From: Paracoccaceae bacterium
GTDB lineage: Bacteria; Pseudomonadota; Alphaproteobacteria; Rhodobacterales; Rhodobacteraceae
Assembly: GCA_030066175.1 (NCBI GenBank)
Contig: JASJCC010000022.1
Span: 1 to 35,674 of the forward strand
DNA length: 35,674 nt
Reading direction: 5' to 3'
The position numbers were made by a program, and so were the translations under genes. Below the pieces are notes generated by a model that worked only from the letters and a program-made list of their open reading frames with translations, searched no databases and had not been told where the DNA came from. Below are positions 7,736 through 34,550 of the stretch, piece after piece (position 1 is the first letter of the stretch; every line of letters starts with the position of its first letter).

Positions 7736-8812
7736 TCATGCAGAGAGCCTGACAGTGAGTTCATTGCACACGACCTCCATCGACGGGCGCAACGCGTCCA
7801 GACTTGGCTTCACGTAGCGCTGCCCCGTGATCGACAGGGGTGTGTGATTGAGCAGTCTGCCGACGATCTCTTCAAGCACACCGGCCTCCATCGCGACAGT
7901 TGCAAAGGTGCGCCGATGCGCATGCGGGTTCCATTGGATCCGACATGGGTTGGTGACATGACCCGTGACTGATTTCGGCGACGGAAACACCCATTGCCGA
8001 CCCAGACCCCGCATAGGCGCCAGGATCTCGTGATGTTTCTGCAGGATGGGGAGGTCGAAGCTCCTGCCGTTCTTGGTCATCGGCAGGTGAATATGATCTT
8101 CGTGGACGTTCTTCCACTCAAGGGTCAGAAGCTCGGTCTTTCGAAACCCTGTGAACAAAGCCAGTTCAAAGAACACCCTGTGAATGGGGTTCTCCAAACC
8201 CTCGATCGTGGTGCGCCACGCCCGCAGATCCTCGATGATGGTGCCGTTCGGCGCCTATTCATACCACTCGATGGCCATCGTCGGGCATTCCGGCAGATCA
8301 TATGTACGGCGCGCATGGTTCCAGACGGTCCGGAAGTACCTCAGCGTGTGGTTGGCGGCAGACGGTATCTGTGCCATCTCACGATGCCGGTCGGCAGCCA
8401 TTGGCTTGGTGATCTCGTCGAGTGGCAGGCGCAGCCAGTCCATCAGGTGCCGTTCAAACAGCTTGCGCAACCCCGTGCGATGGGACTCTGAGCGCAACTT
8501 GGGCCGCGCCAGATAGGCCTCCATGGCGTCCAGCAGTGCTGGCGCGCCGATCTGGATGCGTTTGCCAGCCCCCCTGCCCCATTCAAGAGCGAAGCCCAGA
8601 GCTGTCTGCCGCGCTGCTGCAGCCGAGATCACCGGGAAGCGGCCAATCAACACACGCCTGGTCTGGCCCCCAACGTCTTTCTGAAAGTACCATGTCTTCG
8701 ACCGCTTGCCGACGAAGAGCACGAGGCCCTTGATCTCGCTATCCCAATACTTGTCGGTGCCGGTTTTTGTCGGCGGAAGTTTCTTTGCATAGGTCTCTGT
8801 AAGCTTCGGCAT
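7736..8812 (-). pseudogene. Tyrosine-type integrase, interrupted by an in-frame TAG
   Basis: Two same-frame open reading stretches, 8812-8255 and 8254-7736, are divided only by TAG at 8255-8257. Together they give about 358 residues. The first half is an N-terminal DUF4102-like arm domain (MPKLTETYAKKLPPTKTGT, then GLVLFVGKRSKTWYF) plus a SAM-like core-binding domain. The second half has the recombinase catalytic residues: Arg in FTGFRKTELL, HAHRRTFATVA for the H-x-x-R box, and Tyr in SITGQRYVK. ATG at 8812 is preferred over 8854 because it begins the canonical arm domain. All catalytic residues lie downstream of the stop, so without suppression the protein is inactive. Confidence 0.85.
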
Positions 8813-8851
8813 TTTGTCAGTTTTTTGTCGGGAGCTGCACGATACTCGGCG

Positions 8852-8928
8852 CAACTGGATGCAACTAGATGAAAGACATTATTGAGCTATATGAAACTAT
8901 TAGCAACTGCACGAAGCTAGATGAAACT
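8852..8928. repeat. Direct repeats CTAGATGAAAC, candidate integrase arm sites
   Basis: Four related direct repeats lie just upstream of the integrase start: CTGGATG at 8855, CTAGATGAAA at 8865, CTATATGAAACT at 8887 and CTAGATGAAACT at 8917. Spacings are 10, 22 and 30 bases, close to one, two and three helical turns. Tyrosine integrases bind arm-type direct repeats near the attachment site with their N-terminal domain, and this position and phasing fit that role. Confidence 0.5.
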
Positions 8929-18590: not shown

Positions 18591-18959
18591 ATGGCGAACA
18601 AGCGGCACAAGCCCGAGGAAATAGTTCAGAAGTTGCGGCAGGTTGATGTGCTTGTCGGTCAGGGGATGCAGCGCGTGGATGCGATCCAAGAAGTACGCAT
18701 TACGGAGCAGACCTACTACCGGTGGCGTAAGCAATATGGCGGGATGGGGACCGACCAACCTAAGGGACCCAAGCGGCTTCAGAGTGAGGCAGCGAACGCG
18801 ATCCGTCTGAGAGAGATGCCGAACAATGAGAGGCTCCGAAAGGCGGTCTCAGACCTGATCCTAGACAAGCTCATTCTGAAGGAATCCGCCCGGGGAGCGA
18901 GAGCCGTCTTGGCAGCGTTCCGATGGACCGTTTCAGGCCTGAACAGGCGGAGGCCCTGA
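18591..18959 (+). pseudogene. IS3-family transposase OrfA, altered
   Basis: It begins MANKRHKPEEIVQKLRQVDV and has VRITEQTYYRWRKQYGGMGT (HTH) and RLRKAVSDLILDKLILKES, the leucine-zipper region of IS407-group OrfA proteins. Compared with the family pattern (QxENERLRKAVSDL) there is an extra segment of about 12 codons around 18786-18822. The normal ending shortly after KEAARG is replaced by a 20-residue extension. The Shine-Dalgarno GGAGGG lies just upstream. It could still be translated, but OrfA alone does not transpose. Confidence 0.7.
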
Positions 18960-18977
18960 GCCCCGCCCGCCGTACTA

Positions 18978-19016
18978 CTGCCCGGCAGTTGATTGCGGAG
19001 CAATCGACAAGAGGGG
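18978..19016 (+). repeat. Palindromic repeat copy A
   Basis: CTGCCCGGCAG, then the hairpin GATTGC-GGA-GCAATC, then a degenerate GACAAGAGGGG tail. It splits the OrfB pieces LSPARR and ACIDLIRSEMK, so it is an insertion rather than original IS sequence. Confidence 0.75.
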
Positions 19017-19054
19017 GCTTGCATCGATCTGATCCGAAGCGAGATGAAGGGCAA

Positions 19055-19129
19055 GTCCATTGCGGCGGTTGCCAGTGGATTGCGCTACTGGTTCGAGCAA
19101 CCACTGGCGACGGTTCCAGCCCAATGGAC
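19055..19129. repeat. 75-base nested inverted repeat inside OrfB
   Basis: Outer arms GTCCATTG (19055-19062) and CAATGGAC (19122-19129), middle arms GCCAGTGG (19071-19078) and CCACTGGC (19101-19108), inner TTGC and GCAA around the loop. It separates the IRSEMK and RVLGHHRST pieces of OrfB, so it is another insertion, different from the 40-base family. Confidence 0.6.
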
Positions 19130-19260
19130 GGCGAGCGCTGGATTTGCCGGGTGTTGGGGCACCATCGTTCAACGCAAAGGTATCAGCCCAGAGGTCGAGA
19201 AGATGAAGACCGGCTTGTGTTGGACATGATCGAACTGGCGAAGCAATACGGCGGCTCCCA

Positions 19261-19300
19261 CTGCCCAACAGGGCATTGCGGAGCAATGTCCCGAGAGGGG
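19261..19300 (+). repeat. Palindromic repeat copy B
   Basis: CTGCCCAACAG, hairpin CATTGC-GGA-GCAATG, then CCCGAGAGGGG. It is inserted after KQYGG of OrfB; the coding sense resumes directly behind it with FAALLRDAGW. Confidence 0.8.
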
Positions 19301-19341
19301 CTACAGCAGTTTTGCCGCACTTCTGAGAGACGCGGGCTGGC

Positions 19342-19384
19342 CCCCTCTCGGCAGATTTGGCCTTGCCAAATCGCCTGCCGGGCA
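19342..19384 (-). repeat. Palindromic repeat copy D
   Basis: Minus-strand copy: TGCCCGGCAGG, then the complementary arms GATTTGGC and GCCAAATC around AAG, then GCCGAGAGGGG. The stem sequence differs from copies A-C but pairs perfectly. It is inserted right after LLRDAGW of OrfB. Confidence 0.75.
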
Positions 19385-19444
19385 AAAGGTCAGCGTCGGT
19401 CGTGTCGAAAGACTGTGGAGACGGGAGCGGGGTGAGGAGGATGA

Positions 19445-19894: not shown

Positions 19895-20956
19895 ATGACA
19901 CGATCCATTTTATTGGCCAGCACCATGTTGGCGGGTCTCGTTTCCGCGGCGCAGGCTGACACGCTGCGTCTTTTGACTTGGGGCGGATATGCGCCTGACG
20001 ACGTGGTCGAGATGTTCGAGCAACAGACCGGCCACACTGTCGAAGTGACGAAGTCCAACAATGAGGAAATGATCGCCAAGCTGCGTGCCACCGGTGGAGG
20101 TGGCTTTGACCTTGCCCAGCCCTCGCAAGACCGGGTCATGGGCCCGCAGATGGAGTTCGGCATCTACAAGCCGATGGATGTCTCGAAACTGAACCAGGAC
20201 CTGTTCATCCCGTCGATGCTGCAAGCCACGATGGAGAACACCACTGTGAACGGCGACGTCTACGGCGTGCCGCATGTCTGGGGTACCTCTGGCCTTGTGA
20301 TGAACACTGCCAAGGCAGGGGATGTTGTGGCAGATTACACCGACCTCTGTGACCCCGCGCTCGCCGGCAGCGTGTCTTACCGCCTGAAGCGTCCGACGCT
20401 GATCGGTTTTGCCTTCGCCATGGGTGAGGATCCCTTCGCAGCTTATGGTGACGAAGCGAAATACAAAGAGATCATGGGCATGGTCGAGGCCAAGCTGATC
20501 GAGTGCAAACCCAACGTCAAAACCTATTGGGGTGGCGGCGACGAGCTGATGAACCTCGTACGCTCGGGCGAGGTGACGGCGTCCATGGCGTGGGATACCG
20601 GTGGCTGGAAGCTGAACGACGACAACGCCGACATCACCTTTGTCGCGCCCACATCCGGTGCTTTGGGCTGGATCGACACCTTTGTCCTGCCCGCCAAGGG
20701 CCAGGCCGACGACGTGGCCTATGAGTGGATCAACTTCGTGATGCAGCCGGAAATTGCCGCCATGATCACGGCCGCGGCGGGCAACTTCACGGCCTCTGCC
20801 GGGGCAGACGAGTTTGCAGAAGACAGCTTGAAGGCCAAGTACCAGGCCAGCTTCCCGCAAGAGGACATCGACAACATCAAGTGGTATCCGCCGGTCCCCG
20901 CCGGGCTGGAGGCCATCGAGGGTGAAGTGCTCGACCGCGTTCAGGCCGCCAACTGA
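19895..20956 (+). CDS. ABC transporter periplasmic binding protein, spermidine/putrescine (PotD/PotF) type
   Basis: 353 residues with a Sec signal peptide (MTRSILLASTMLAGLVSAAQ, cleavage after AQA). The mature start DTLRLLTWGGYAPDDVVEMF is typical of PotD/PotF-like extracellular solute-binding family 1/8 proteins. VYGVPHVWGTSGLVMNT and AWDTGGWKLND line the cleft in this family. It captures a small cationic or amine-type substrate in the periplasm for the ATPase and permeases that follow. AGAGAGGA precedes the ATG. First gene of a four-gene operon, with a hairpin after its stop that may give it extra mRNA. The true ligand is not determined; proximity to a gamma-glutamyl ligase cluster hints at an amine. 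Confidence 0.92.
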   Translation: MTRSILLASTMLAGLVSAAQADTLRLLTWGGYAPDDVVEMFEQQTGHTVEVTKSNNEEMIAKLRATGGGGFDLAQPSQDRVMGPQMEFGIYKPMDVSKLNQDLFIPSMLQATMENTTVNGDVYGVPHVWGTSGLVMNTAKAGDVVADYTDLCDPALAGSVSYRLKRPTLIGFAFAMGEDPFAAYGDEAKYKEIMGMVEAKLIECKPNVKTYWGGGDELMNLVRSGEVTASMAWDTGGWKLNDDNADITFVAPTSGALGWIDTFVLPAKGQADDVAYEWINFVMQPEIAAMITAAAGNFTASAGADEFAEDSLKAKYQASFPQEDIDNIKWYPPVPAGLEAIEGEVLDRVQAAN

Positions 20957-20963
20957 CCATCCA

Positions 20964-20987
20964 GGCGGCAGCCTTCGGGGTGCCGCC
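20964..20987 (+). terminator. Intercistronic hairpin after the binding-protein gene
   Basis: GGCGGCA and TGCCGCC form a 7-bp stem around a 10-base loop between the binding-protein and ATPase genes. In ABC operons such hairpins commonly stabilise or attenuate the transcript, so that more binding protein than membrane complex is made. Confidence 0.55.
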
Positions 20988-21007
20988 GCTTTGTCTACGG
21001 ATTTCGC

Positions 21008-22093
21008 ATGACCCCTGATCTGGAATGCGTCGACCTCGTAAAGCGGTTCGACGACACGGCGGCTGTCGACAATGTCTCGTTTTCGGTGTCACCGGGCAGC
21101 TTCTTTTCCATTCTGGGGCCATCTGGCTGCGGCAAAACCACGATCATGCGGATGATCGCAGGGTTTCTCGACCCGACCTCGGGCGACATCAAAATCAAAG
21201 GCGGCTCGGTGCTGGATACCCCGCCAAACAAGCGCCCGGTGAACATGGTGTTCCAGCATCTTGCGTTGTTCCCGATGATGACCATCGCCGACAATATCGG
21301 CTACGGGCTGCGCCGCCGCGGCATGGCCAAGGACGACATCGCCCGCAAAGTGGGCGAAGCGCTGGATCGCATCGGCCTGCCGGGGATCGGCGAGCGCAAG
21401 GTGGACGAGCTCTCTGGCGGGCAAAAGCAGCGCGTGGCTATCGCCCGCTGCATGGTGCTGGAGCCGGACGTGTTGTTGCTGGACGAACCGCTGGGCGCGC
21501 TGGACCTGAAACTCCGCGAGCATATGAAGGTCGAGCTCAAGGCACTGCAGGCCGCGTTCGACACCACGTTCCTCTACATCACCCATGACCAGTCCGAGGC
21601 GCTGGTCATGTCCGATCAGATCGCCGTCATGAACGCCGGACGGTTCGAGCAAGTCGGCACCGGGCAAGACCTGTACTACCGGCCCGACACACCTTTTGTC
21701 GCCGGGTTCATCGGTGACTCGAACCGCTGGACAGGCCGGATTGAGCGGGCTGAGGGGGGCAAGATACAGTTGCGCACCGACACCGGTCTGGCGATGTTCG
21801 CCACCGGCGCGGCACTGTCGCAGGGCGACAGAGCCGAGATCTTTGTCCGCCCGGAATCGATCCGTCTTGCCGCAAGCGCCGAGGCACTGCCGGATTGTGA
21901 AAACCAGCTGAAAGGGATTGTCACCAGCCTCTTGTTCAACGGCGCCGCATCGCGCGTGTTGGTCCGCGACGACGTTGGTGAAACGCTGGAGGTTACCCTG
22001 CCGCAATCCGGGGAATTCGCCGCGCTTCAAAGCGGCGATACGGTGCATATCGGCTGGGGCAGCGCGCAGGCCACCTGCTTTGGGTCGGCCTGA
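21008..22093 (+). CDS. ABC transporter ATP-binding protein, PotA type
   Basis: 361 residues. Walker A GPSGCGKTT, Q-loop in MVFQHLALFP, signature LSGGQKQRVAIAR, Walker B VLLLDEPLGALD and switch His in YITHDQSEAL are all intact. The C-terminal third is a TOBE-type domain (GRIERAEGGKIQLRTD, IFVRPESIRL), as in PotA and MalK-class importers. It powers import by the permease pair that follows. Its stop overlaps the next start as TGATG, indicating coupled translation. Confidence 0.95.
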   Translation: MTPDLECVDLVKRFDDTAAVDNVSFSVSPGSFFSILGPSGCGKTTIMRMIAGFLDPTSGDIKIKGGSVLDTPPNKRPVNMVFQHLALFPMMTIADNIGYGLRRRGMAKDDIARKVGEALDRIGLPGIGERKVDELSGGQKQRVAIARCMVLEPDVLLLDEPLGALDLKLREHMKVELKALQAAFDTTFLYITHDQSEALVMSDQIAVMNAGRFEQVGTGQDLYYRPDTPFVAGFIGDSNRWTGRIERAEGGKIQLRTDTGLAMFATGAALSQGDRAEIFVRPESIRLAASAEALPDCENQLKGIVTSLLFNGAASRVLVRDDVGETLEVTLPQSGEFAALQSGDTVHIGWGSAQATCFGSA

Positions 22094-22950
22094 TGCGCCA
22101 CGAATCCCGGATCGCGTTTATCCTTTTGCTGACACCGCTGATCCTGTGGCTAAGCTTGCTCATCGTCATTCCGCATATCGACATGCTGCTGATAAGCCTG
22201 CGGGAACGCATCAGTTTCGGCGTCTATGAGCGCAGCCTCGTGCAATACGAAAAAGCGCTGACCGAGCCGCTCTATCTGCGCACGTTCTGGCGCACAGCGG
22301 TGATGTCGGTGCTGGCCACACTGATCACGCTGCTGATCGCCTTTCCCGTGGCGTATTACATCGCGAAAATGGCGAAGGGGCGCTTGCAGCAGGTGCTTTT
22401 TATGCTGTGTCTGATCCCGTTTTACGTCTCCGAATTGGTGCGGACCTTTGGTTGGATGATCCTGCTGCGCGAGACCGGTCTCATATCGAACCTGCTGCAA
22501 TGGACGGGTCTCGCCGATCAACCGGTCGAACTGCTCTATACCGACGCCACAATGATGGTCGGGCTGGTCTATACCTCGATGCTGTTCATGGTTGTGCCGC
22601 TGGTGACCACGCTTGAAAGCCTCGACGATAGCGTGATCGAAGCGGGTTATGATCTTGGCGGCAATGGCCTTTCCGTCCTGCGCGAAATCATCATCCCCCA
22701 CGCCATGCCCGGCATCGTTTCGGGCTGTATCGTGGTCTTCATGCTGTCGCTGGGCAACTACCTGACCCCAACGATGCTAGGGGGCAAGGACAGTCTGTGG
22801 TTCACCGAGATGATCTACAACCAGTTCATCGTACGCTCGAACTGGGAGCTGGGGGCAGCGTTCGGCTTTATGCTCCTGGTGCTGTCTTCGGTGATCGTCT
22901 GGGGGATGCTATGGCTGACCGGTCGGACGCTGAAAGAGACGATGGGGTGA
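22093..22950 (+). CDS. ABC transporter permease, PotB type
   Basis: 285 residues with about six hydrophobic segments, the first at residues 10-30 (FILLLTPLILWLSLLIVIPH). The cytoplasmic EAA loop that contacts the ATPase is visible as EAGYDLGGNGLSVLREIIIP followed by HAMPGI. It forms the heterodimeric inner-membrane channel with the next gene. Its ATG overlaps the ATPase stop. The start is unambiguous. Confidence 0.95.
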   Translation: MRHESRIAFILLLTPLILWLSLLIVIPHIDMLLISLRERISFGVYERSLVQYEKALTEPLYLRTFWRTAVMSVLATLITLLIAFPVAYYIAKMAKGRLQQVLFMLCLIPFYVSELVRTFGWMILLRETGLISNLLQWTGLADQPVELLYTDATMMVGLVYTSMLFMVVPLVTTLESLDDSVIEAGYDLGGNGLSVLREIIIPHAMPGIVSGCIVVFMLSLGNYLTPTMLGGKDSLWFTEMIYNQFIVRSNWELGAAFGFMLLVLSSVIVWGMLWLTGRTLKETMG

Positions 22951-22954
22951 CGCC

Positions 22955-23806
22955 ATGATCCCGACGATCCCGCAATCCCGTGCCTTCCGCACCGTTTATG
23001 GCGGCTATGTCCTGCTGTTCTTCATCTACCTGGCGTTGCCGCTGACCGTTGTGGCCGTCTTTGCCTTCAACGACAGCCAATTCCCCTCGCTGCCATGGGA
23101 AGGGTTCACGTGGAATTGGTTCTTTGGTGACGCGCGGCCACAGATCGGTGTCTTTCACGAACGCGGCATCTTGCGCGCGGTGGGCACCTCGGCCTTTGTC
23201 GCGGTCTGCGTGGCGGTGCTGTCGGTCGGTGTTGGGACCACCAATGCCTTCCTCTTCAACCGCTATGAGTTCCGAGGCAAAGGGCTGCTTTATGTGCTGA
23301 TGCTCTTGCCGCTGGTGATCCCCGGCATCGTGCTGGGCATCTCCATCCTTGTGTTCTCATCAACGCTGGCCAACGGCATCTGGGATCTGGCGCAGATGGA
23401 TATCCAGGCGCTGAGACCCGGCTTGCTGCTGGTGATCCTCGGGCAGTTCAGTTTCATCACGACAATCGCCACGCTGGTGATCTCCGCGCGCTTGCAAAAG
23501 TTCGACCGGACGCTGGAAGAGGCCGCGCTGAACCTTGGGGCAGACCGATTGACCGCGGTGCGCACAATCACGCTCCCCTTCCTCGCGCCGGCGATCATCG
23601 GCGCGCTGGTTGTGGCCTTTCTGATGAGCTTTGAGAACTTCAACACAACGCTGATGCTGGTGGGCTCTGACGCTCCGCTGACCATCGCCATGTTCGACCG
23701 GCTGAAAGAAGGCTCAACCCCGCTGCTCAACGCCGTATCGCTGCTGTTGATGCTGGGGTCGTCGCTGCTGGCGTTGCTGGTGATCCTGTTCCAGCGCCGC
23801 CCGTGA
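22955..23806 (+). CDS. ABC transporter permease, PotC type
   Basis: 283 residues with an N-terminal membrane segment (YVLLFFIYLALPLTVVAVF) and further transmembrane helices. The EAA loop reads EEAALNLGADRLTAVRTITL followed by PFLAPAI. It is the second permease of the importer and the last gene of the plus-strand operon. It converges on the minus-strand secreted-protein gene 83 bases away, with no strong bidirectional terminator visible. Confidence 0.95.
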   Translation: MIPTIPQSRAFRTVYGGYVLLFFIYLALPLTVVAVFAFNDSQFPSLPWEGFTWNWFFGDARPQIGVFHERGILRAVGTSAFVAVCVAVLSVGVGTTNAFLFNRYEFRGKGLLYVLMLLPLVIPGIVLGISILVFSSTLANGIWDLAQMDIQALRPGLLLVILGQFSFITTIATLVISARLQKFDRTLEEAALNLGADRLTAVRTITLPFLAPAIIGALVVAFLMSFENFNTTLMLVGSDAPLTIAMFDRLKEGSTPLLNAVSLLLMLGSSLLALLVILFQRRP

Positions 23807-23888
23807 AAGCTGCCGCGCGACATACAGTGGCGCAAGAGGCCAGTTTATCCTGCAGCTGATGCGATTGTGAGCCGACCGAAGCTCTCGT

Positions 23889-24710
23889 TCAGTTGTTCTG
23901 AACCGCCGAGACAGAGATCTCTGTATCAGGATTCAGATCCTCGTTCGGATCGGTGAGAAAGCCGCCGGGGAAAGACACGCTAAACGGCTCCCCTTCAACA
24001 TCCAGGCAAAGCTCATGGTTGTTGTCGTTGTCCATCAGGTCGCCGACGGCCATGGGCGTAACCTGGACCACCGTGCCGTGTGGCTGGCGGAGCGTGACGC
24101 GGTAGCGCTTTGTTTCATTCTCATCAATTTCATCGCCCCCGGGTTTGGTGATCCCGCCAACCCAGACCGCGCGAACGATGCCGCGCAGTCCGGATCGCGG
24201 GCAATCACCCTCTTGCACAAGGCTTCAGTGGTTTGGCGGCAGGTCTTCGGCGAGGATCATCGTCGGGCCGCTGGCCAAGGGAATAACCTCTGCCACCGTA
24301 CCTTTGAAGTTCAGCGACCCGTCGAGCGACATCACATCCCCCACGATCTCCACCCTTGCCGGGGGATCGTCTGCCGATCCGTACTGGCCAACAACAAGGG
24401 CGGTGCGCAGCTCGCCAAAGTCGTCAGCAGGCCGAAGCGTGACGCAGCCGACGCGCCCCGTATCCCCCGAGGCGCGTATGACCCGGAAATCCTCGGGGTC
24501 GAGCGTGTCGGAGTCGACCTCGTGAGAGAAGATAACCGGCATGCCATCGCGCCCGGACACGCCTTGGCAGACCAAAGCGGTGCGCACCGCGATCTGGCGC
24601 GAAACGTCGAGACCGAAAAAGGCGGAAAGGAGCGATGGGGTATCCTGCGCCATCGCGATTGTTGGAACAAGGGCCATCAGGGCAATTGCGGCGGTGACTT
24701 CTTTGAACAT
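23889..24710 (-). pseudogene. Secreted protein of unknown function, interrupted by an in-frame TGA
   Basis: ATG 24710 has a GGGAGAG site and begins a signal peptide (MFKEVTAAIALMALVPTIAM, cleaved after MAQ). The domain after it has pairs of spaced Cys (LVCQG, VGCVT) and ends at TGA 24225-24227. The same frame continues at once with SLVQEGDCPRSGLRGIVRAV and ends DPNEDLNPDTEISVSAVQNN. Both parts read like one periplasmic beta-rich protein of about 270 residues, a family I have seen in Rhodobacteraceae without a known function. A GTG at 24218 could reinitiate the second half, but that half has no signal peptide. It has its own promoter-like region, with an inverted repeat. Confidence 0.65.
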
Positions 24711-24764
24711 GTTTTCTCTCCCGCTTGTCACCCTATCCGCTCCGATGGGCAGGGTATGCGGATG

Positions 24765-24788
24765 GTTCAAAGCGTCAAGCGTTTGAAC
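24765..24788. promoter_or_regulatory. Inverted repeat over the promoter of the secreted-protein gene
   Basis: GTTCAAA and TTTGAAC (7-bp perfect arms, 10-base spacer) lie 55-78 bases before the start at 24710. On the minus strand the spacer and right arm contain TTGACG, and a TACCCT hexamer follows 16 bases later, so a bound repressor would cover the -35 element. Confidence 0.5.
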
Positions 24789-24837
24789 TGTTCAGGCCAA
24801 CGTCCTTCGGTGAGGTGATCTTCACGATGCCCAGGAT

Positions 24838-25983
24838 TCAGAGCAACGCCACAAGCAGTGCCTTGGTGTTCTCCTCCGTCATTTCGACCGGATTACCGCC
24901 AACTGAGGGATCTCGCAGCGCAGAGGCGACCAGCGCATCGATATCGGGATCGGAAACGCCCAGGTCGGTCAGCGTCTTCGGGATGCCAAGGCTATTGTTG
25001 AGGTCGTCCACGAACGCCCGGAACCCGGCAAAACCGCCCTCGATCCCCAAATACGCCGCCGTGGCATCGAAACGCCCGGCGATGGCAGGCGCGTTGAACT
25101 TCAGCACTTCGGGCATGCAGACGGCATTTGTCGTGCCGTGATGCGTATGGTGCACAGCGCCAATCGGGTGGGACAAGGCGTGAATGGCGCCAAGACCCTT
25201 TTGGAACGCGGTCGCGCCCATGGCTGCCGCGCTCATCATATTGGCGCGCGCCTCCAAGTCAGCGCCGGCCGCATAGGCCCGCGGCAGGTAGTCTTTCACA
25301 AGGCGCATCCCCTCCAGCGCGATGCCCTGGCTCATTGGATGGTAGTGCGGTGAGGAATAGGCCTCGACGCAATGGGCAAAGGCATCCAGCCCGGTTCCCG
25401 CCGTGATGGCTTTGGGCATGCCCACGGTCAATTCCGGGTCACAGATGACAATTGCCGGCAGCATTTTGGGGTGAAAGATAATCTTTTTCTCGTTCGTATC
25501 GGCGTTGGTCAGCACCCCCGCGCGGCCCACCTCTGAGCCTGTTCCGGCCGTTGTCGGCACGGCGACGATCGGGTGAATGCCGTCTGGATCGGCACGGGTC
25601 CACCAATCGCCCACGTCCTCAAAATCCCAGACCGGCCGGGTTTGCCCCGCCATGAAGGAGATGCATTTGCCCAGATCGAGCGCGGAGCCACCGCCAAAGG
25701 CGACCACCCCGTCGAACCCGCCGTCGCGGTACATCTGCAACCCATCGGTCAGGTTGCCGCCGTTTGGGTTTGGATCGACGTTGGAAAAGAGGGCGCGCCC
25801 TAGGCCTTGAGCTTCCAAAAGGTCCAGCGTCCGACGTGTGATCTGCATGTCAGCAAGGCCGCGATCGGTGACCAGAAGCGGACGGTTGATCCCAGCCGCC
25901 ATACAGGCGTCGCCAATCTCCGAAATCCGGCCAGCTCCGAAACGGATTGTCGTCGGATAACTCCAGTTCGCCGTGAGTGTCAT
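24838..25983 (-). CDS. Iron-containing alcohol dehydrogenase
   Basis: 381 residues, the usual length of group III alcohol dehydrogenases. The NAD-binding loop GGGSALDLGK, the TAGTGSEVGRAGVLT segment, GTGLDAFAHCVEAYSS and the metal-ligand HPIGAVHHTHHG region are all intact. It would oxidise a primary alcohol or reduce an aldehyde with NAD(P). It is the last gene of the TRAP-ligase-ALDH-ADH operon and starts right after the aldehyde dehydrogenase stop. Next to the gamma-glutamyl ligase it could oxidise the hydroxyl end of a gamma-glutamylated amino alcohol; that is inference. Confidence 0.93.
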   Translation of the reverse strand: MTLTANWSYPTTIRFGAGRISEIGDACMAAGINRPLLVTDRGLADMQITRRTLDLLEAQGLGRALFSNVDPNPNGGNLTDGLQMYRDGGFDGVVAFGGGSALDLGKCISFMAGQTRPVWDFEDVGDWWTRADPDGIHPIVAVPTTAGTGSEVGRAGVLTNADTNEKKIIFHPKMLPAIVICDPELTVGMPKAITAGTGLDAFAHCVEAYSSPHYHPMSQGIALEGMRLVKDYLPRAYAAGADLEARANMMSAAAMGATAFQKGLGAIHALSHPIGAVHHTHHGTTNAVCMPEVLKFNAPAIAGRFDATAAYLGIEGGFAGFRAFVDDLNNSLGIPKTLTDLGVSDPDIDALVASALRDPSVGGNPVEMTEENTKALLVALL

Positions 25984-25984
25984 G

Positions 25985-27361
25985 TCAGGCCTTTCGCAGG
26001 TGGTAGGATTTCGGACGGGTGAGCGCCTGGTAGCCCAGATGCGACAAGCCCGCGCCCCGGCCCGTATCCTTGCAGCCAGTCCAGCACAGCGCCGGATCGA
26101 GGTAGTCGCAGCGGTTCATGAACACCGTGCCGGTCTCAAGCCGGTCGCCGATCTCCTCAGCCTGAGACGCGTCGCGCGTCCAGACGCTGGCGGTAAGGCC
26201 AAAGCGGCTGTCATTCATCAGACGCACCGCCTCATCGTCACCGTCCACGGGCATGATGCCAACCACGGGTCCAAAGCTTTCGTCGCGCATTACCCGCATG
26301 TCATGGGTGACACCGGTCAGGACTTGTGGAGTGACGTAGGTCCCCGCACCGTCATCGGCGGGCATCCTGGCCACATGCGCGGTTGCACCGTCAGCTATCG
26401 CCTCGTCGATCTGCGCGCGCACCTCGCGGGCAAACCGGATATGCGCCATCGGTCCCATCGTGGTATCCGCATCGAGTGGGTTGCCAAGGACCTGCGCATT
26501 GGCCCAGGCGACGGCCTTTTCGGTGAAGTCGTCATAGAGCGCCCGGTCGACATAGATCCGCTCGATCCCGCAGCAACACTGCCCGCTGTTGAACATCGCC
26601 CCGTCCATAAGCGTATCGACCGCGGCGTCGAGATCGGCATCAGCACGGACATAGCCCGGGTCCTTACCCCCCAGCTCGGTCGCGACGGGGATGAAGGTGC
26701 CTGCGGCGGCGCGTTCCATAGCCTGCCCACCGCCGACAGAGCCTGTGAAGTTCACGAAATCCACCTGCCGTTCCGCGATCAGCGCGGTTGTCGTGTCGTG
26801 ATCCAGTACCACGTTGCGCATCACCGCCTCGGGCACACCTGCGGCCTGAAACGCCTCGGCCAGCCGTTCGCCCACCTGCAGTGTTTGCCGCGCGTGTTTG
26901 AGTATGACGGCGTTACCCGCAATCAAGGCAGGCGCAATCGCGTTGATCGCGGTCATGTACGGGTAGTTCCAGGGGGCGACGACCAGCACGGTGCCCCAAG
27001 GCACCCGCTTGATCAGGCGCCGGAACGTGGCGCTGTCTTCGATCTCGTCCGGGGCAAGCGCGTCAGCCGCGATACCGGCCATGTAGGTCACTCGTTCCGA
27101 AAACCCGCCATATTCGCCGCCATAGCGCACCGGGCGGCCCATCTGGTGGGCCAGTTCAGTCGCCATGCGATCTGTGGTCTCACCGACGATGCGGTTGGCC
27201 TCCAGAACGCGGTCGATCCGCTCCTGAAGCGGGCGCGCCGCCCACTCGGCCTGCGCCGCGCGTGTTTCCTTTGCCGCCGCAAGGGCCGCGTTCCGATCCA
27301 TTACCTCGCGAGTGAGGTAGACGGAGCCGTCAATTGGCGAAATGAGGTCGATCGTTGCCAT
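25985..27361 (-). CDS. NAD-dependent aldehyde dehydrogenase
   Basis: 458 residues of the aldehyde dehydrogenase superfamily. VVAPWNYPY holds the oxyanion Asn, ATELGGKDPGYV the general-base Glu, and GQCCCGIERIYV the nucleophile Cys. FTGSVGGGQ is the cofactor loop. It oxidises an aldehyde to the acid. Its product step fits after the adjacent iron alcohol dehydrogenase. ATG 27361 lies just past the ligase stop; a GTG two codons earlier overlaps that stop. Confidence 0.93.
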   Translation of the reverse strand: MATIDLISPIDGSVYLTREVMDRNAALAAAKETRAAQAEWAARPLQERIDRVLEANRIVGETTDRMATELAHQMGRPVRYGGEYGGFSERVTYMAGIAADALAPDEIEDSATFRRLIKRVPWGTVLVVAPWNYPYMTAINAIAPALIAGNAVILKHARQTLQVGERLAEAFQAAGVPEAVMRNVVLDHDTTTALIAERQVDFVNFTGSVGGGQAMERAAAGTFIPVATELGGKDPGYVRADADLDAAVDTLMDGAMFNSGQCCCGIERIYVDRALYDDFTEKAVAWANAQVLGNPLDADTTMGPMAHIRFAREVRAQIDEAIADGATAHVARMPADDGAGTYVTPQVLTGVTHDMRVMRDESFGPVVGIMPVDGDDEAVRLMNDSRFGLTASVWTRDASQAEEIGDRLETGTVFMNRCDYLDPALCWTGCKDTGRGAGLSHLGYQALTRPKSYHLRKA

Positions 27362-27363
27362 CG

Positions 27364-28731
27364 TCACGCCCTTTCGAAACCGCGGGCGATTTCGTAATCG
27401 GTCACCACCGCATCGAACGCCTCTTGCTCGACCTCTGCCGCGCGGGTGTAGTGATCGACCACCCAGTCCCCCATGCGTTTGCGCAGCATGGCCGAGTTGC
27501 GAAGCGTTTCCGTGGCTTCGCGCAGCGTGTGCGGGAACTCTGCAATCTCATCCATCGCGTAGACATCGCCGCTGGTGGGCGGCGACAGATCGAGCCCCTC
27601 CTCGATGCCCGACAGTCCCGCGGCGAGTTGCCCAGCGCAGGCCAGGTAGGGGTTGATGTCGGACCCAGGCATGCGGCACTCGATCCGCACACCCTTGGTG
27701 CCGTCGCCGACCAACCGATATGCGGCCGTGCGATTGTCGACCGACCACGCAATCTTGGTGGGTGCAAAGGTGCCCGGCAGGAAGCGTTTGTAGCTGTTCA
27801 CATAGGGCGCCATGAAAAACGTGATGTCCGGGGAATACTTCAGCAACCCGGCGACATAGGCCCGCATGGTGGATGACATCGCAAGCTCGGCGTCGCCATC
27901 GAAGAAAGCGTTCCCACCGGCGCCATCCGCCAGAGATTGATGGATATGGGCGGCGGATCCAACCTTGTCATGGCGCCATTTGGCGATGAAGCTCGCGGCG
28001 TGGCCGCGGCTGTCGGCGATCTCTTTCACAGCCTGCTTGGCGATGACGTGGTGATCTGCCGCCAGCACGGCGTCGGCGTAGCGGATGTTGAGCTCTTCCT
28101 GCCCCGTCTCGGCCTCGCCTTTCGAATTTTCGACAGGCACCCCGGCGGCGACCAGCAGGTTCCGCACCGGCCGCATCACGTGCTCTTCCTTGGAGGTCTG
28201 CAGGATGTGGTAATCCTCGTTATAGCCCGAGATCGGCGCGAGGTTGCGAAAGCCTCCGCGACGAATCTCGTCAAAGCTGGCCTCGAAAAGGAAGAACTCC
28301 AGCTCGGTCGCCATCATGGGCGTAAACCCAAGCTTTTGCGCCCGCGCGACCTGCGCTTTCAGGATTTGCCGGGGCGAATGCGCCACCGGCTTATGCGTAT
28401 GGTGGTCGATGAGATCGCAGAGCACCATCGCCGTGCCGTCAAGCCACGGCACGCGCCGCAGCGTCGACAGATCCGGGCGCATGACATAGTCGCCATAGCC
28501 GGACTCCCAACTGGTTGAGGCATAGCCGTCAGGCGTTGCCATCTCGATATCGGTGGCCAGAAGATAGTTGCAGCAATGGGTCTCTTCATGCGCGCTCTCG
28601 ATGAAGTTCGAGACGTGAAACCGCTTGCCCATGAGCCGGCCCTGCATATCAACCATGCACACCAGGACAGTATCCAGCTCACCGCTTTTGGCGGCCTCTT
28701 GCAGGGCATCGAAAGGTAGGTTGGCGGTCAT
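27364..28731 (-). CDS. Glutamine-synthetase-family gamma-glutamylamide ligase (PuuA-like)
   Basis: 455 residues. GS-family motifs: ATELEFFLFE (metal-binding Glu), AAHIHQSL (His and ATP region), NSYKRFLPGTFAPTKIAWSV and DNRTAAYRLVG (glutamate and ATP site), and the adenylylation-type tail is absent. Length and the shortened N-terminal domain match the PuuA, GlnT and IpuC class, which use ATP to join glutamate to an amine, polyamine or amino alcohol rather than to ammonia. A GGGAG site precedes the ATG. It lies between the TRAP receptor and the ALDH, so it is likely the entry enzyme of a catabolic pathway. The amine is unknown. Confidence 0.9.
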   Translation of the reverse strand: MTANLPFDALQEAAKSGELDTVLVCMVDMQGRLMGKRFHVSNFIESAHEETHCCNYLLATDIEMATPDGYASTSWESGYGDYVMRPDLSTLRRVPWLDGTAMVLCDLIDHHTHKPVAHSPRQILKAQVARAQKLGFTPMMATELEFFLFEASFDEIRRGGFRNLAPISGYNEDYHILQTSKEEHVMRPVRNLLVAAGVPVENSKGEAETGQEELNIRYADAVLAADHHVIAKQAVKEIADSRGHAASFIAKWRHDKVGSAAHIHQSLADGAGGNAFFDGDAELAMSSTMRAYVAGLLKYSPDITFFMAPYVNSYKRFLPGTFAPTKIAWSVDNRTAAYRLVGDGTKGVRIECRMPGSDINPYLACAGQLAAGLSGIEEGLDLSPPTSGDVYAMDEIAEFPHTLREATETLRNSAMLRKRMGDWVVDHYTRAAEVEQEAFDAVVTDYEIARGFERA

Positions 28732-28754
28732 TTTGGTTTCTCCCGGGCCATGCG

Positions 28755-28780
28755 CGCGCCCCCTTTACAGAGGGGGCGCG
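28755..28780. terminator. GC-rich hairpin between TRAP receptor and ligase genes
   Basis: CGCGCCCCCT and AGGGGGCGCG form a perfect 10-bp stem around TTACAG, just after the receptor stop. No T-run follows on the minus strand; TTTTGTCTTA follows on the plus strand. It probably protects the upstream receptor mRNA or attenuates transcription into the enzyme genes. Confidence 0.65.
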
Positions 28781-28790
28781 AGGTTTTGTC

Positions 28791-29831
28791 TTATTCGAAG
28801 TTGTAGGGCACGCCGGCCTGGTTGATGACGCTGTTGTATTCACGGAAGATGCCGACGATCTTTTCGTGCACTTCGCCTTCCTGCGCGATCTCGTCCCAGA
28901 ACACCTTGGCCGCGTTCTCAACCTCGGCCCATTCCGAGGGCGGCACCGAGCGCAGCTCAAGCTTGTCGCCATTGGCGCGCAAAGCCGCTTCGCCGCCCCA
29001 ATACCACTGGTTGCGGTAGGTATGGCCAGCCTCGATCCCGGCCATCACAACCGATTTCAGGTGATCGGGAAGCTCGTTCCAGCGTTCCTGGTTGGCAAAC
29101 CAAGACCCGATCCATGCGCCCGAAATATTGTTGGTCAGGAAGTAGTCGGTCACGTCGGCCCACCCGACGGTGTAATCCTCGGTGATCCCGGACCATGCCA
29201 TACCGTCAAGCTCACCCGTCTGCACGGCGACCTCGGCATCTTCGTAAGGAATGTTCACCGGAATCACGCCAAATTGCGCCAGGAAGCGGCCTGCCGTTGG
29301 GAAGGTGTAGAGCTTCAACCCGTTGAGATCGGCGACCGACGTGATTTCCTTTTTGGTGTTGAAGTTGCACGGATCCTGCCCAGCGGCCGACAGCCACTGA
29401 ACGCCGACCTTGGCGTATTCCTCACGCCAGATATCGGCCAAGCCGTACTGATTGAAGAGCACCGGCACATCCAGGATGTGTTTGGTCGCGAACGGAAAGT
29501 AGCCGCCGAACACGCGCAATGGTGTCGGAGAGGCCATGGAGTCGTCGTCCGAATGCACCCCATCGATGGTGCCGCGCTGCAGCGCTTGGAAGAGCTCGCC
29601 CGTTGGAACAATTTGGTCGGCAAAGAACAGCTCGATCTCCAACTCGCCATTGGCATTTGCGTTGATGTAATCGATGGCGGGCTTGGTCACATGCTCGCCC
29701 AAGGCCCCGCCGGCATAGGTCTGAAACCGCCAGCGAATGGGCTGCTGGGCATGCACAATGGCCGGCGCCGCCAGCGTGGCCGGTGCTGCCAGCGCGGCAC
29801 CTTTGAGAAATCTGCGTCTTGAAGTGGTCAT
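28791..29831 (-). CDS. TRAP transporter substrate-binding protein (DctP family)
   Basis: 346 residues with a Tat signal (TSRRRFLKGAALAAPATLAA, cleavage after VHA). The mature part carries the DctP features VTKPAIDYINANANGELEIE, DLNGLKLYTFPTAGRFLAQF and the Arg region that would bind a carboxylate, followed by VAVQTGELDGMAWS. The strong site AGGAGA precedes the ATG. It delivers an organic acid or amine-acid to the DctQM membrane pair upstream in the operon. The Tat signal implies folding in the cytoplasm before export. The ligand cannot be told from sequence. Confidence 0.93.
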   Translation of the reverse strand: MTTSRRRFLKGAALAAPATLAAPAIVHAQQPIRWRFQTYAGGALGEHVTKPAIDYINANANGELEIELFFADQIVPTGELFQALQRGTIDGVHSDDDSMASPTPLRVFGGYFPFATKHILDVPVLFNQYGLADIWREEYAKVGVQWLSAAGQDPCNFNTKKEITSVADLNGLKLYTFPTAGRFLAQFGVIPVNIPYEDAEVAVQTGELDGMAWSGITEDYTVGWADVTDYFLTNNISGAWIGSWFANQERWNELPDHLKSVVMAGIEAGHTYRNQWYWGGEAALRANGDKLELRSVPPSEWAEVENAAKVFWDEIAQEGEVHEKIVGIFREYNSVINQAGVPYNFE

Positions 29832-29895
29832 GTCGTCTTCTCCTGTTGGTCGAAGTCAAATCAGCGCCGGTTGACCCGGCCCGCTCTTTTTGTGC

Positions 29896-31224
29896 TCAAT
29901 TTCCGTACACAATACCTGGAAGCCACAATGCAATTTCGGGGAACGCCATCACCAGCCCCAAGGCCAAAGCCATCACCCCGACAAAGGGTATGATGGACCG
30001 GTAGATATCGCCAATAGTGATTTCGGGTGGTGCCATCGCCCGCATCAGGAACAGGTTGTACCCAAAAGGCGGGGTCATGTAGGCGATCTGGCAGGTGATC
30101 GTGTAAAGCACGCCGTACCAGATCAGATCGAACCCAAGCGCGCCCACTAGCGGCACATAAAGCGGCGCAACGATCACCAGCATCGCCGTATCGTCAAGGA
30201 ACGTGCCCATGACGAGAAAGCTGAGCTGCATCAGGATCAGGATGATCCACGGGTTCAACCCAAGCTGAACCGTGAACAGGTTTTCAATCGCCTTCACTGC
30301 TCCCAAACCGTCAAAGACCGCGCCAAAGGCCAGCGCGGCGAGGATGATCCACATGAACATGCAGGTGATGCCAAGCGTCTGCTTGACCGAGGTTTCGAAC
30401 ACCTGCCAGGTCATGCGGCGTTTCAGCACCGCGGCGAGGAAGGCCGCGATGGCCCCCAAGGCCGAGCTTTCCACCAGCGAGGTCCAGCCATTGACGAAGG
30501 GCACCATCATGACGGCAAAGATACCCAGCGGCAAAAGACCCGCGCCAAGCAGACGGATCTTTTCGCTCCAGGTGATCTCGGCACGTTCTTCGGCGCTCAT
30601 CACCGGGCCGAGTGATGGGTTCAGCCGGCAGCGAATCGCGATGTAAATGACGAACAGGGCTGCCATCATCAGACCGGGGACGACCCCGGCCAGCCAAAGC
30701 TGGCCCACCGGCTGACGCGCGATCATCGCGTAGAGCACCAGAACGACTGAGGGTGGGACAAGGATCCCCAATGACGACCCGGCCTGTATAACCCCGGTCA
30801 CCATACGTTTGTCATAACTGCGCCTGAGCAGTTCCGGCAAAGCGATGGTGGCGCCGATGGCCATGCCTGCAACCGAAAGGCCGTTCATCGCTGAAATCAG
30901 GACCATCAAGCCGATTGTGCCAATGGCCAGCCCGCCCGAAAGCCCGCCCATCCAGACGTGAAACATCCGGTAGAGATCGTCGGCAATCCTCGATTCAGAC
31001 AGGATGTAGCCCATGAAGATGAACATCGGCAGCGTCAAAAGCGGGTACCAGCGCATCACCTTGATCGCGGCAGCGAAGCCAAGGTCATACCCGCCGCGAT
31101 CCCCCCAGAGAAAGAACGCCGCGATCACAGCCACAAAGCCAATCGCACCAAAAACCCGCTGGCCGGTCAGCAGCATCAGCATCATGGTCGAGAACATCAG
31201 CGCCGCGATCAGCTCGTAACTCAT
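29896..31224 (-). CDS. TRAP transporter large permease (DctM family)
   Basis: 442 residues, almost wholly hydrophobic, with about 12 membrane helices. The DctM motifs LRTP-like GYIL, GLSVAGMAIGATIALPELLR, AGSSLGILVPPSVVLVLY and the second-half TMLVIVAPLY and YMTPPFGYNLFLM are seen. It is the sodium-coupled transport subunit, working with DctQ. Its start overlaps the DctQ stop by 4 bases (ATGA). Confidence 0.95.
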   Translation of the reverse strand: MSYELIAALMFSTMMLMLLTGQRVFGAIGFVAVIAAFFLWGDRGGYDLGFAAAIKVMRWYPLLTLPMFIFMGYILSESRIADDLYRMFHVWMGGLSGGLAIGTIGLMVLISAMNGLSVAGMAIGATIALPELLRRSYDKRMVTGVIQAGSSLGILVPPSVVLVLYAMIARQPVGQLWLAGVVPGLMMAALFVIYIAIRCRLNPSLGPVMSAEERAEITWSEKIRLLGAGLLPLGIFAVMMVPFVNGWTSLVESSALGAIAAFLAAVLKRRMTWQVFETSVKQTLGITCMFMWIILAALAFGAVFDGLGAVKAIENLFTVQLGLNPWIILILMQLSFLVMGTFLDDTAMLVIVAPLYVPLVGALGFDLIWYGVLYTITCQIAYMTPPFGYNLFLMRAMAPPEITIGDIYRSIIPFVGVMALALGLVMAFPEIALWLPGIVYGN

Positions 31225-31781
31225 CCGCGCCGGCCCCCGTCGAGGTCTTCCGGGGCCATGTGCACAGGCTCGTCATCCTTCGGCCCCATGTCATGGCCTT
31301 GCAGGCGCAGGATGTCTTTGAACAGTTCCGAAATGGCCTGCAGCAACATCAGGAGGATGCCAATCACCATGATCGTCTTGATCGGCCAGATATAGGGGCG
31401 CCAGGCCGAGGGCGATCGCTCTCCCCCGTATTGGAACGAATACATCAGGCTGTCCCAGCCTCCCCAAAGCAGGAACGCCAGATAGGTGATGAGAAAGAGC
31501 ACCGTGAGGGCATCAATCTGGCTCTTCTTGCGGTCGGACCATTCGCCATAAAGCAGGTCCATACGCACATTCGCCCCCATCTGCATCGCATAGGGACCGC
31601 CGAGCATATAGTAAGCAACCATCGCAAACTGCGCCATCTCAAGCGTCCAGAGCGACGGCACAAAGAACGTCTTGGAGATCGAGGAATAGAGCAGGATCCC
31701 CATGAGGACAAAGATGCCATACATGACAATCCGACCCAACATCCGGTTGCTGCGATCCACCCAGTGAACATAGGCCTTCAT
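31221..31781 (-). CDS. TRAP transporter small permease (DctQ family)
   Basis: 186 residues from ATG 31781 (GTG 31793 is an alternative start adding four). Four hydrophobic segments with the DctQ signature EMAQFAMVAYYMLGGPYAMQ followed by GANVRMDLLYGEWSDRKKS. It pairs with DctM. It is the first gene of the six-gene minus-strand operon. Its C terminus is charged and cytosolic (PVHMAPEDLDGGRR). Confidence 0.9.
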   Translation of the reverse strand: MKAYVHWVDRSNRMLGRIVMYGIFVLMGILLYSSISKTFFVPSLWTLEMAQFAMVAYYMLGGPYAMQMGANVRMDLLYGEWSDRKKSQIDALTVLFLITYLAFLLWGGWDSLMYSFQYGGERSPSAWRPYIWPIKTIMVIGILLMLLQAISELFKDILRLQGHDMGPKDDEPVHMAPEDLDGGRRG

Positions 31782-31793
31782 CACACCGGTCAC

Positions 31794-32639
31794 GGGGCGA
31801 TCACCTTTGGACTGCGCGCGGCGAATGGCAGGACGGAAATGAGTGTTCTGGGAATTGCTGCCCAGATTGGCGATTTGGCGGTCGCCAAAATGGCGCGGGT
31901 GATCCGGTTATCTGGTTCGCGCTGGTAAACAGCCCCAGAACTCAGTTGTTGGCTTACCCGCGTTGGTAAGTTGCCTCGCACTCTTGGCTGCATTGATGAA
32001 CCAATTGTGCGGACAACGGATTGCGGTGCCAAGTCGCTGCACGGCACCCTGATACCCTGACTTACGCGGAGGTAGCTCAAACCCGCGTCGATCAGGTCTT
32101 TGGCATGTGCATGCCTACTGGGCATCAAAGCGATACCGTACGGTTTAGCGCCCGCAACGGAGTGCCGACAATGTGCGTCCGAGTTTACCACAATGGCATC
32201 AGATGCCCCTGCGTTCTAACTGTCAAGCGCGAGCCCTTCGCAGGTGTTCCTGCGCTATAGTGAGCAGCCTTTCCTTTGTGCGTTATCGCCAACATAAAGC
32301 CCCGCGATTTGAGCGTCTCAGGGTTTTCGGAGGGCGGCAGGTCCAGCGAAGAACGCCAAATTGCCGCCATCGCAATCGCATTCGCAAGTTGGAAGTCTGG
32401 CTGCGGTTCAAAACACAGATACACAAGTGTAAGCATCGCCAGCTTTCATGCCGCTACTTAGAGATGCCCGACGAGATGGCTGATCTTGAACGAAACTTTT
32501 GGCGCAGACTGAGCGATCTTCCCGCCATTAGGAGACCGGCAGTCTTCCAGCAGAGGACCAAAATCCGGGCGAACACAACCATTCGGTAGGCGAGGACTTG
32601 CGGATCTTGTGATGCAGCGTAGCTGATTAACCGCCAGCG
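31794..32639. other. 846-base gap upstream of the TRAP operon, no recognised gene
   Basis: Reading frames exist on both strands (the longest are about 130 codons), but none has a domain, a good ribosome site or codon pattern I can support. The base composition is less GC-biased than neighbouring genes. It should hold the promoter of the TRAP operon near 31800-31900 and perhaps remnants of lost genes. Confidence 0.5.
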
Positions 32640-34550
32640 TTATCGTTCATGCCGCGCCATGATCGCAGAGACGTCCTTTAGTCCCTGATTGTTGGACAAC
32701 TCCGCGGGGGCGAGGCGGAGTCGGCGGCGCCAGTTGGGGTGTTGATGGACTGTTCCAGGCAGATTGGGCTGTTCGCCCTCACCGAGGATATCCTCGATCT
32801 GGACCGCGGCCAGCCGGGCACTGCTGCGAGCGAGGAAGTCGATCATTCCCGACATCGAGCCGCTGGTGTCGCCGCTGGCTTTGTCGAACCCTGCGACCTC
32901 GCCATCACGGTGTGTACGGGCATCCTCAGCCGCCTCCGGCGTCATGTCGCCCACCCGCTGTCGCCAATCGATATCGCGACCGGCACGCCATCCCCGCCAG
33001 AGCGGCAGGTCATGTGAGCCGAAGCTGGCAATGGCGTTTTGCGGATAGTTTTCCGGCGCAAGAAAGCGGCCATCCCCGCCCCAGTCACGCTCGAACATGG
33101 CCACGCGGCACCCCAGGATGCCCGATTGATCCATATCCTCACGCAGCCTATCCGGAACCACACCCAGATCTTCGCCGATGATCACCGCACCCGCCCGCGC
33201 TGCTTCGATCCGGGCTACCGCCAGCAGAGCGGCTTTGGGCATGGTCACATAGACGCCAGGCAGGCCCTCGGGCACCCAAAAAGCGCGGTCAAAGCCCAGG
33301 ATGTGGTCGATCCGCAAGATGCCGGAAAAGCGCAGTTGGTGGCGCAGGATATGGGCGATGGGTGCAAAACCGCGCGCGCTCAGCACGTCGGGGCGCATCG
33401 GCGCAAGGTTCCAGACCTGCGCCTGCGGGGAAAAGCCGTCTGGCGGCGCGCCTTGCGAAACGCCGCGCGCAAAGAGATCGGGATCAGCCCAGGTTTCGGC
33501 CCCATGCGGATGTGTGCCGACCGCGAGGTCGAGATAAAGCCCGTGCGCCATACCGGCCGCGAGGGCGACAGTCTGGGCTGCCGCCAACTGGCATTCGGCC
33601 TGCCATTGCAGCCAGGCGTGAAAGGTGATCTCTGAAGCGTTGGCGGCGGCGAACTCGGCGACGGCGTCGCTGGTGGCGTCTTGCAGGTCTGCGGCCCAGT
33701 CCCGCCAATAGGGGCCTTGCACGGCAGAAAGCGCCTGATGCGTTGCAAAGACCTGCAGGCTGTCGCCTTGTTCGGTCCACCAGCGCTGAAACACCGGGTC
33801 TTCGCTGGCTTGCGTTTGGGTATATGCGGTCTCCAGAGCCCGTTTCTGTGCCGCCAAAGCCGATGGGTAATCGATCAGCGGCCCATCTGCGGCGGGCTCG
33901 GCACCGTCGGCCGCCACATGCATCGTGGCGAACCATTGCCGGCTGGTGGGGGAATAGGGGCTGAAGGCCTGCGGGTCTTCGGCAAAGCCGGCATGCACCG
34001 GGTTAATACCGAGGAACCCGGCGCCGTGGCGCCCCAGCGTCTCTGCCATGGCAGCAAGATCGGCGTAATCCCCGACGCCCCCACGCCCGACGGGTCGCAT
34101 GCCGTAAAGCGGGGCCATCACCCCCCATCCGCGCCGGACGGGGGGAAGGCGTTCCGGGGCCGAGAGGATCGCCATGCGGACACCGCCCACCATCAGCCAG
34201 TGATACCCCATCGGCAGGGGGGCGAGGTCAATACGACCCTCGGCGCGGCCGTTTTGCGTGGTGCCGTCTTCGCAAGTCAGCTGCCAGTCAGTCGCGCCAC
34301 TGGTGATCGGGACTGAGACCGGTTGGTCTGCGGTCACCACCATCCACTCTGGTACCGGGCGGGCCGCGCGGGTCTGTTGCAAGGCGACGAGGCTGTCGGA
34401 GGCGGCCTGGTCGTTCTCAGCAGAAATGCCAAGTGCGGCTAACACGGCCTGCAGGCTTTCTGGAGGTGCCTCATGCTCGCGGCCGGCGCCATCCCGGTAG
34501 CGCCAGACCAGACCACTAGCCTCGGCCAGCGCCTCAAGCGCACCGATCAC
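32640..34550 (-). CDS. malQ: 4-alpha-glucanotransferase (amylomaltase, GH77)
   Basis: 636 residues. An N-terminal accessory region (residues 1-140) precedes the GH77 barrel, which begins GWGVMAPLYGMRPVGRGGVG. The nucleophile Asp is in ILRIDHILGFDRAF, the acid/base Glu in VIIGEDLGVVPDRL, and the third carboxylate follows SFGSHDLPLWRG. It disproportionates maltodextrins, in step with glycogen debranching. The start overlaps the glgX stop by 4 bases, so the two are one operon. The C terminus ends in HPNWRRRLRL, typical of the family. Confidence 0.93.
   Translation of the reverse strand: MIGALEALAEASGLVWRYRDGAGREHEAPPESLQAVLAALGISAENDQAASDSLVALQQTRAARPVPEWMVVTADQPVSVPITSGATDWQLTCEDGTTQNGRAEGRIDLAPLPMGYHWLMVGGVRMAILSAPERLPPVRRGWGVMAPLYGMRPVGRGGVGDYADLAAMAETLGRHGAGFLGINPVHAGFAEDPQAFSPYSPTSRQWFATMHVAADGAEPAADGPLIDYPSALAAQKRALETAYTQTQASEDPVFQRWWTEQGDSLQVFATHQALSAVQGPYWRDWAADLQDATSDAVAEFAAANASEITFHAWLQWQAECQLAAAQTVALAAGMAHGLYLDLAVGTHPHGAETWADPDLFARGVSQGAPPDGFSPQAQVWNLAPMRPDVLSARGFAPIAHILRHQLRFSGILRIDHILGFDRAFWVPEGLPGVYVTMPKAALLAVARIEAARAGAVIIGEDLGVVPDRLREDMDQSGILGCRVAMFERDWGGDGRFLAPENYPQNAIASFGSHDLPLWRGWRAGRDIDWRQRVGDMTPEAAEDARTHRDGEVAGFDKASGDTSGSMSGMIDFLARSSARLAAVQIEDILGEGEQPNLPGTVHQHPNWRRRLRLAPAELSNNQGLKDVSAIMARHER

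Follow-up and report, generated by a model that had tools for sequence, protein, structure and literature searches.

Ethanolamine is a headgroup of membrane lipids. The closest described system for its catabolism is an operon of Phaeobacter sp. MED193 arranged as RpiR-GGAH-EtoV-EtoW-EtoX-ETAGA-GAADDH-GETADH. The proteins of this operon increase when phosphorylethanolamine is supplied; for EtoX, a Kd of 7.9 uM was measured with ethanolamine, and four further compounds were not bound (PMC10132767). The structure 4UAB is that of Csal_0678 from Chromohalobacter salexigens with ethanolamine bound and Glu220 acting as a platform (PMC12410723). The arginine to which TRAP binding proteins owe their carboxylate selectivity is missing from Csal_0678 (PMC4646407). 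The GlnA4 pathway of Streptomyces coelicolor is proposed to use the same ethanolamine chemistry, which a review also describes as proposed for C. salexigens (PMC9397018). As outlined in the parts of its description considered here, that pathway consists of a ligase, an alcohol dehydrogenase, an aldehyde dehydrogenase and a gamma-glutamylglycine amidohydrolase, and ends in glycine and glutamate; those parts name no TRAP importer (PMC6529630, PMC9397018). The Puu pathway for putrescine is similar in that a ligase of the glutamine synthetase (GS) fold provides gamma-glutamyl protection and oxidation follows, but the amine oxidase PuuB is found where the eto operon has an alcohol dehydrogenase.

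The window examined here is a stretch of 35,674 nucleotides from a Paracoccaceae bacterium (contig JASJCC010000022.1, positions 1 to 35,674). Six genes lie on its minus strand between 31793 and 24838 in an order identical to that of MED193 from etoV to the alcohol dehydrogenase, and the probability that the locus is an eto-type ethanolamine catabolic operon is put at about 0.92. Since the same operon is present in Phaeobacter sp. MED193 (PMC10132767), the system is already known and no new mechanism is involved. The locus is unusual only in the absence of the neighbouring hydrolase and regulator genes. Unlike MED193, it has no GGAH and RpiR genes upstream; in their place there is an 846-bp stretch without recognisable genes (31794-32639), and then a gene for a 4-alpha-glucanotransferase (malQ-type, PF02446).

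The first three genes encode a TRAP transporter: EtoV, the small permease or DctQ (31221-31793; PF04290, 2e-20), EtoW, the large permease or DctM (29896-31224; PF06808, 3e-64), and EtoX, the solute-binding protein or DctP (28791-29831; PF03480, 6e-23). They are followed by the GS-fold ligase, a predicted gamma-glutamylethanolamide synthetase (27364-28731; PF00120, Gln-synt_C, 1e-93), an aldehyde dehydrogenase (25985-27367; PF00171, Aldedh, 1e-112) and an iron-type alcohol dehydrogenase (24838-25983; PF00465, 2e-46, and PF25137, 3e-43). Matched by gene order, the last two are the GAADDH and GETADH of MED193, and their positions are kept in relatives; by position they would be the gamma-glutamyl-aminoacetaldehyde dehydrogenase and the gamma-glutamylethanolamide dehydrogenase, respectively. 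Overlaps of four bases at DctQ/DctM and ligase/aldehyde dehydrogenase, together with a gap of one base between the two dehydrogenase genes, fit one translationally coupled unit. The first-pass annotation had placed the transporter, ligase and both dehydrogenases in a single operon, and the six minus-strand reading frames, all with clear Pfam assignments, bear this out. The span that it gave, 24838-31781, was correct overall except for the start of DctQ, which is really a GTG at 31793. Curated models give the pathway no name, because NCBIfam matches of the ligase (228 bits for GlnA, TIGR00653, where the cut-off is 429; 205 bits for gamma-glutamylputrescine synthetase, GGputSyn, where it is 650) and of both dehydrogenases all fall below threshold.

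The substrate is indicated by the binding protein and the ligase, the two proteins by which the gammaproteobacterium C. salexigens was compared. EtoX, which has a twin-arginine-like N-terminus (RRRFLK), is 64% identical to Csal_0678 (4uab/4xf5) over 317 residues with a score of 480 bits; the next PDB match scores 66 bits. This orthologue of Csal_0678 likewise has no TRAP carboxylate arginine and keeps a putative acidic platform residue. In an alignment, Tyr175 takes the position of the carboxylate arginine, where 4yzz has Arg, and neither Tyr175 nor the acidic Glu218 varies among 81 sequences. Judging by the numbering offset, Glu218 would be equivalent to Glu220 of 4UAB. With 5dm3, an entry from C. 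salexigens, the ligase shares 65% identity (662 bits), and it scores 527 bits with 11zs; ordinary glutamine synthetases reach at most 192 bits. It is thus an orthologue of 5DM3 that is distinct from GlnA.

These similarities favour the earlier suggestions that an amine is guarded as a gamma-glutamylamide and then oxidised and that the amine is an amino alcohol. Ethanolamine, alaninol, 3-aminopropanol and putrescine had been put forward for trial. With both proteins orthologous to those of a characterised ethanolamine system, ethanolamine is the substrate expected among these amines. A second entry with the Csal_0678 sequence, 4XF5, holds a related amino alcohol, so that the specificity of the binding protein may not be strict.

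It is improbable that the operon applies this gamma-glutamyl chemistry to other small amino alcohols, such as L-alaninol or 3-aminopropanol, or to a wider set of them. Enzymes of these classes would suffice for that purpose, and the isopropylamine/alaninol pathway uses IpuC, a ligase of the same superfamily. Against this wider role are the 64-65% orthology to an ethanolamine-binding protein and to 5DM3, the link of the MED193 operon to ethanolamine, and the invariance of the putative ligand-site residues.

Gamma-glutamylation of a polyamine (putrescine) by a puu-type pathway is hardly credible. The ligase belongs to the PuuA superfamily, as its sub-threshold GGputSyn match reflects, and a PotDABC-type transporter adjoins the operon, but the operon contains an alcohol dehydrogenase instead of a PuuB-type oxidase. 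In addition, contig C55 of the same genome (L096) carries a separate puu-like cluster made up of an ABC permease, two PuuA-type ligases, a class I amidotransferase and a PuuB-type FAD oxidase. Its two ligases are just 30-32% identical to the window ligase. Given this separate cluster, putrescine is unlikely as a substrate of the eto operon.

The ligase also differs from GlnA at one flap position. The glutamate of the GlnA flap motif (NSYKRL-x-PG-x-EAP), which shapes the ammonium site, has given way to Phe322 in the ligase of the window, and 74/74 orthologues have Phe as well; the GlnA of the same genome keeps Glu. The substitution speaks against an ammonia-fixing enzyme. That the ligase is an ordinary glutamine synthetase standing beside functionally unrelated dehydrogenases is very unlikely, since the common fold and the PF00120 and sub-threshold TIGR00653 matches that would allow it are outweighed by the genome's own GlnA, by the Phe found in all eto ligases compared and by the strict conservation of the operon.

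For the preferred reading, a catabolic route for ethanolamine, the following steps are predicted in this organism from homology and gene position. EtoX would capture ethanolamine in the periplasm, and EtoVW would import it. The GS-fold ligase would then use ATP to join the amine to the gamma-carboxyl of glutamate, forming gamma-glutamylethanolamide. The iron-type alcohol dehydrogenase would oxidise the alcohol group of this compound to an aldehyde, and the aldehyde dehydrogenase would convert the aldehyde to gamma-glutamylglycine, from which a hydrolase would free glycine and regenerate glutamate. The closing hydrolysis may depend on an enzyme acting in trans, or on a dedicated gene that lies in sequence missing from the assembly. 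The EutBC route for ethanolamine was also considered and was rejected, as no ethanolamine ammonia-lyase EutB was found in the genome (an 84%-complete assembly).

With EtoX as the query, 80 related loci, nearly all from Rhodobacterales, were retrieved from a genome collection, and most contain the full six-gene set in the same order, which is not expected by chance. EtoV is 49-88% identical to the proteins in the same position in relatives, and EtoW 81-97% identical to its counterparts there. In DNA, the relative that matches the operon over the greatest length in one piece is a Silicimonas MAG (L013), with 80% identity over 6.95 kb. There is some variation in gene content. For example, a Marivita locus (L033) has an extra 133-aa reading frame between the ligase and aldehyde dehydrogenase genes that is absent from the window. 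In Paracoccus pantotrophus, bhcBCD, which handles glyoxylate, follows the eto enzymes; this fits a route for glycine via glyoxylate, which is plausible. A few relatives, e.g., two Ruegeria (L005 and L007), have etoVWX without the enzymes and the ligase elsewhere in the genome, so transporter and enzymes may move separately. The detached copies (L005, 8038-11038; L007, 8033-11032) encode proteins 88-97% identical to those of the window, and the one in L005 adjoins a xylose-type gene set. In L007, a 53% identical hydrolase is found beside the detached ligase.

Of the 78 relatives with enough upstream sequence, 70 have a gene of the PF05013 (N-formylglutamate-amidohydrolase) family immediately before etoV, and a divergent RpiR-family regulator occupies that spot in 66 of 73. 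The layout of hydrolase, regulator and operon also occurs on annotated plasmids of Qingshengfaniella and Paracoccus denitrificans. By its position, the PF05013 gene would be the GGAH of MED193. Eight relatives are also without it, so it is a usual companion and not a defining part of the eto operon. Neither the hydrolase nor the regulator is present in the window. The first-pass annotation had remarked that the final gamma-glutamyl hydrolase was missing, and within the reach of Pfam and blastx searches this holds. It had expected a class I amidotransferase, to be sought elsewhere in the genome; that expectation was wrong as to type, given the PF05013 gene that precedes etoV in related loci, and the class I amidotransferases that were found sit on other contigs. 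Location also led to the rejection of an operon-linked enzyme of either this type or the C26 hydrolase type.

The 846-bp stretch that replaces these genes gave no blastx or blastn match. It is single copy in its own genome and was therefore rejected as a repeat element. No hydrolase or regulator remnants were detected in 31794-32700 or 23807-24838 by blastx with all reading frames of related loci (E<=0.01), nor did blastn match these stretches to relatives. The assembly (3.74 Mb in 253 contigs, 84% complete) contains one PF05013 gene, on contig C143, which shares 35% identity with the GGAH query and adjoins a gene that reads as pyruvate-kinase-like. Several other genomes have a similar PF05013 paralogue of 33-36% identity, besides the dedicated hydrolase or replacing it, and the C143 gene is for this reason probably a separate gene. 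The RpiR regulator has no clear counterpart elsewhere in the assembly, where the best match is just 25% identical. The Silicimonas MAG, too, is without either gene, hydrolase or regulator, at this position, and has a distant PF05013 paralogue only. Loss or relocation of the two genes in this lineage is likely, a claim kept short of firm by the incompleteness of the assemblies. Candidates for a hydrolase acting in trans are the C143 paralogue, a PF07722 (C26) hydrolase on contig C196 and three gamma-glutamyltransferases; neither the C26 hydrolase (one strong match) nor the transferases are linked to the operon.

Downstream, the eto operon converges with a PotDABC-like ABC transporter (19895-23806, plus strand). 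In 12 of the 60 relatives whose downstream sequence is long enough, orthologues of this transporter come right after the alcohol dehydrogenase gene and are read in the same direction; at the DNA level, two versions from Roseovarius share 82-83% identity with that of the window. The binding protein of the transporter distantly resembles the polyamine-binding PotD/PotF (about 95 bits). A functional tie to ethanolamine is possible. The fuller proposal is rather doubtful: that the lineage of the window and the Silicimonas MAG has genuinely lost both regulation by RpiR and a gamma-glutamylglycine hydrolase of its own, relying on one in trans, and that the PotDABC-like transporter is a second eto uptake module in part of the family.

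Other features of the window were noted in passing. Between the two convergent operons there is a 181-aa reading frame (24225-24770) with a signal-peptide-like stretch, no Pfam match and no counterpart in related loci. A 1615-aa protein (13297-18144) has 15 stretches of RTX calcium-binding repeats (PF00353) and no further Pfam domain. A reading frame with a transposase-type helix-turn-helix (PF01527; 18591-18959), followed by one without a Pfam match (18923-19435), is likely the remnant of an insertion sequence. On the minus strand, adjacent reading frames for a phage-integrase catalytic domain (7736-8197) and an Arm DNA-binding domain (8255-8854) are probably a broken tyrosine recombinase gene.

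The comparison has a consequence for annotation, in that the closing hydrolase in this group would be a PF05013 protein and not a PuuD-type amidotransferase. For the biology of these bacteria, the locus would add one more alphaproteobacterial lineage with the use of ethanolamine, and hence with turnover of the phosphatidylethanolamine headgroup.
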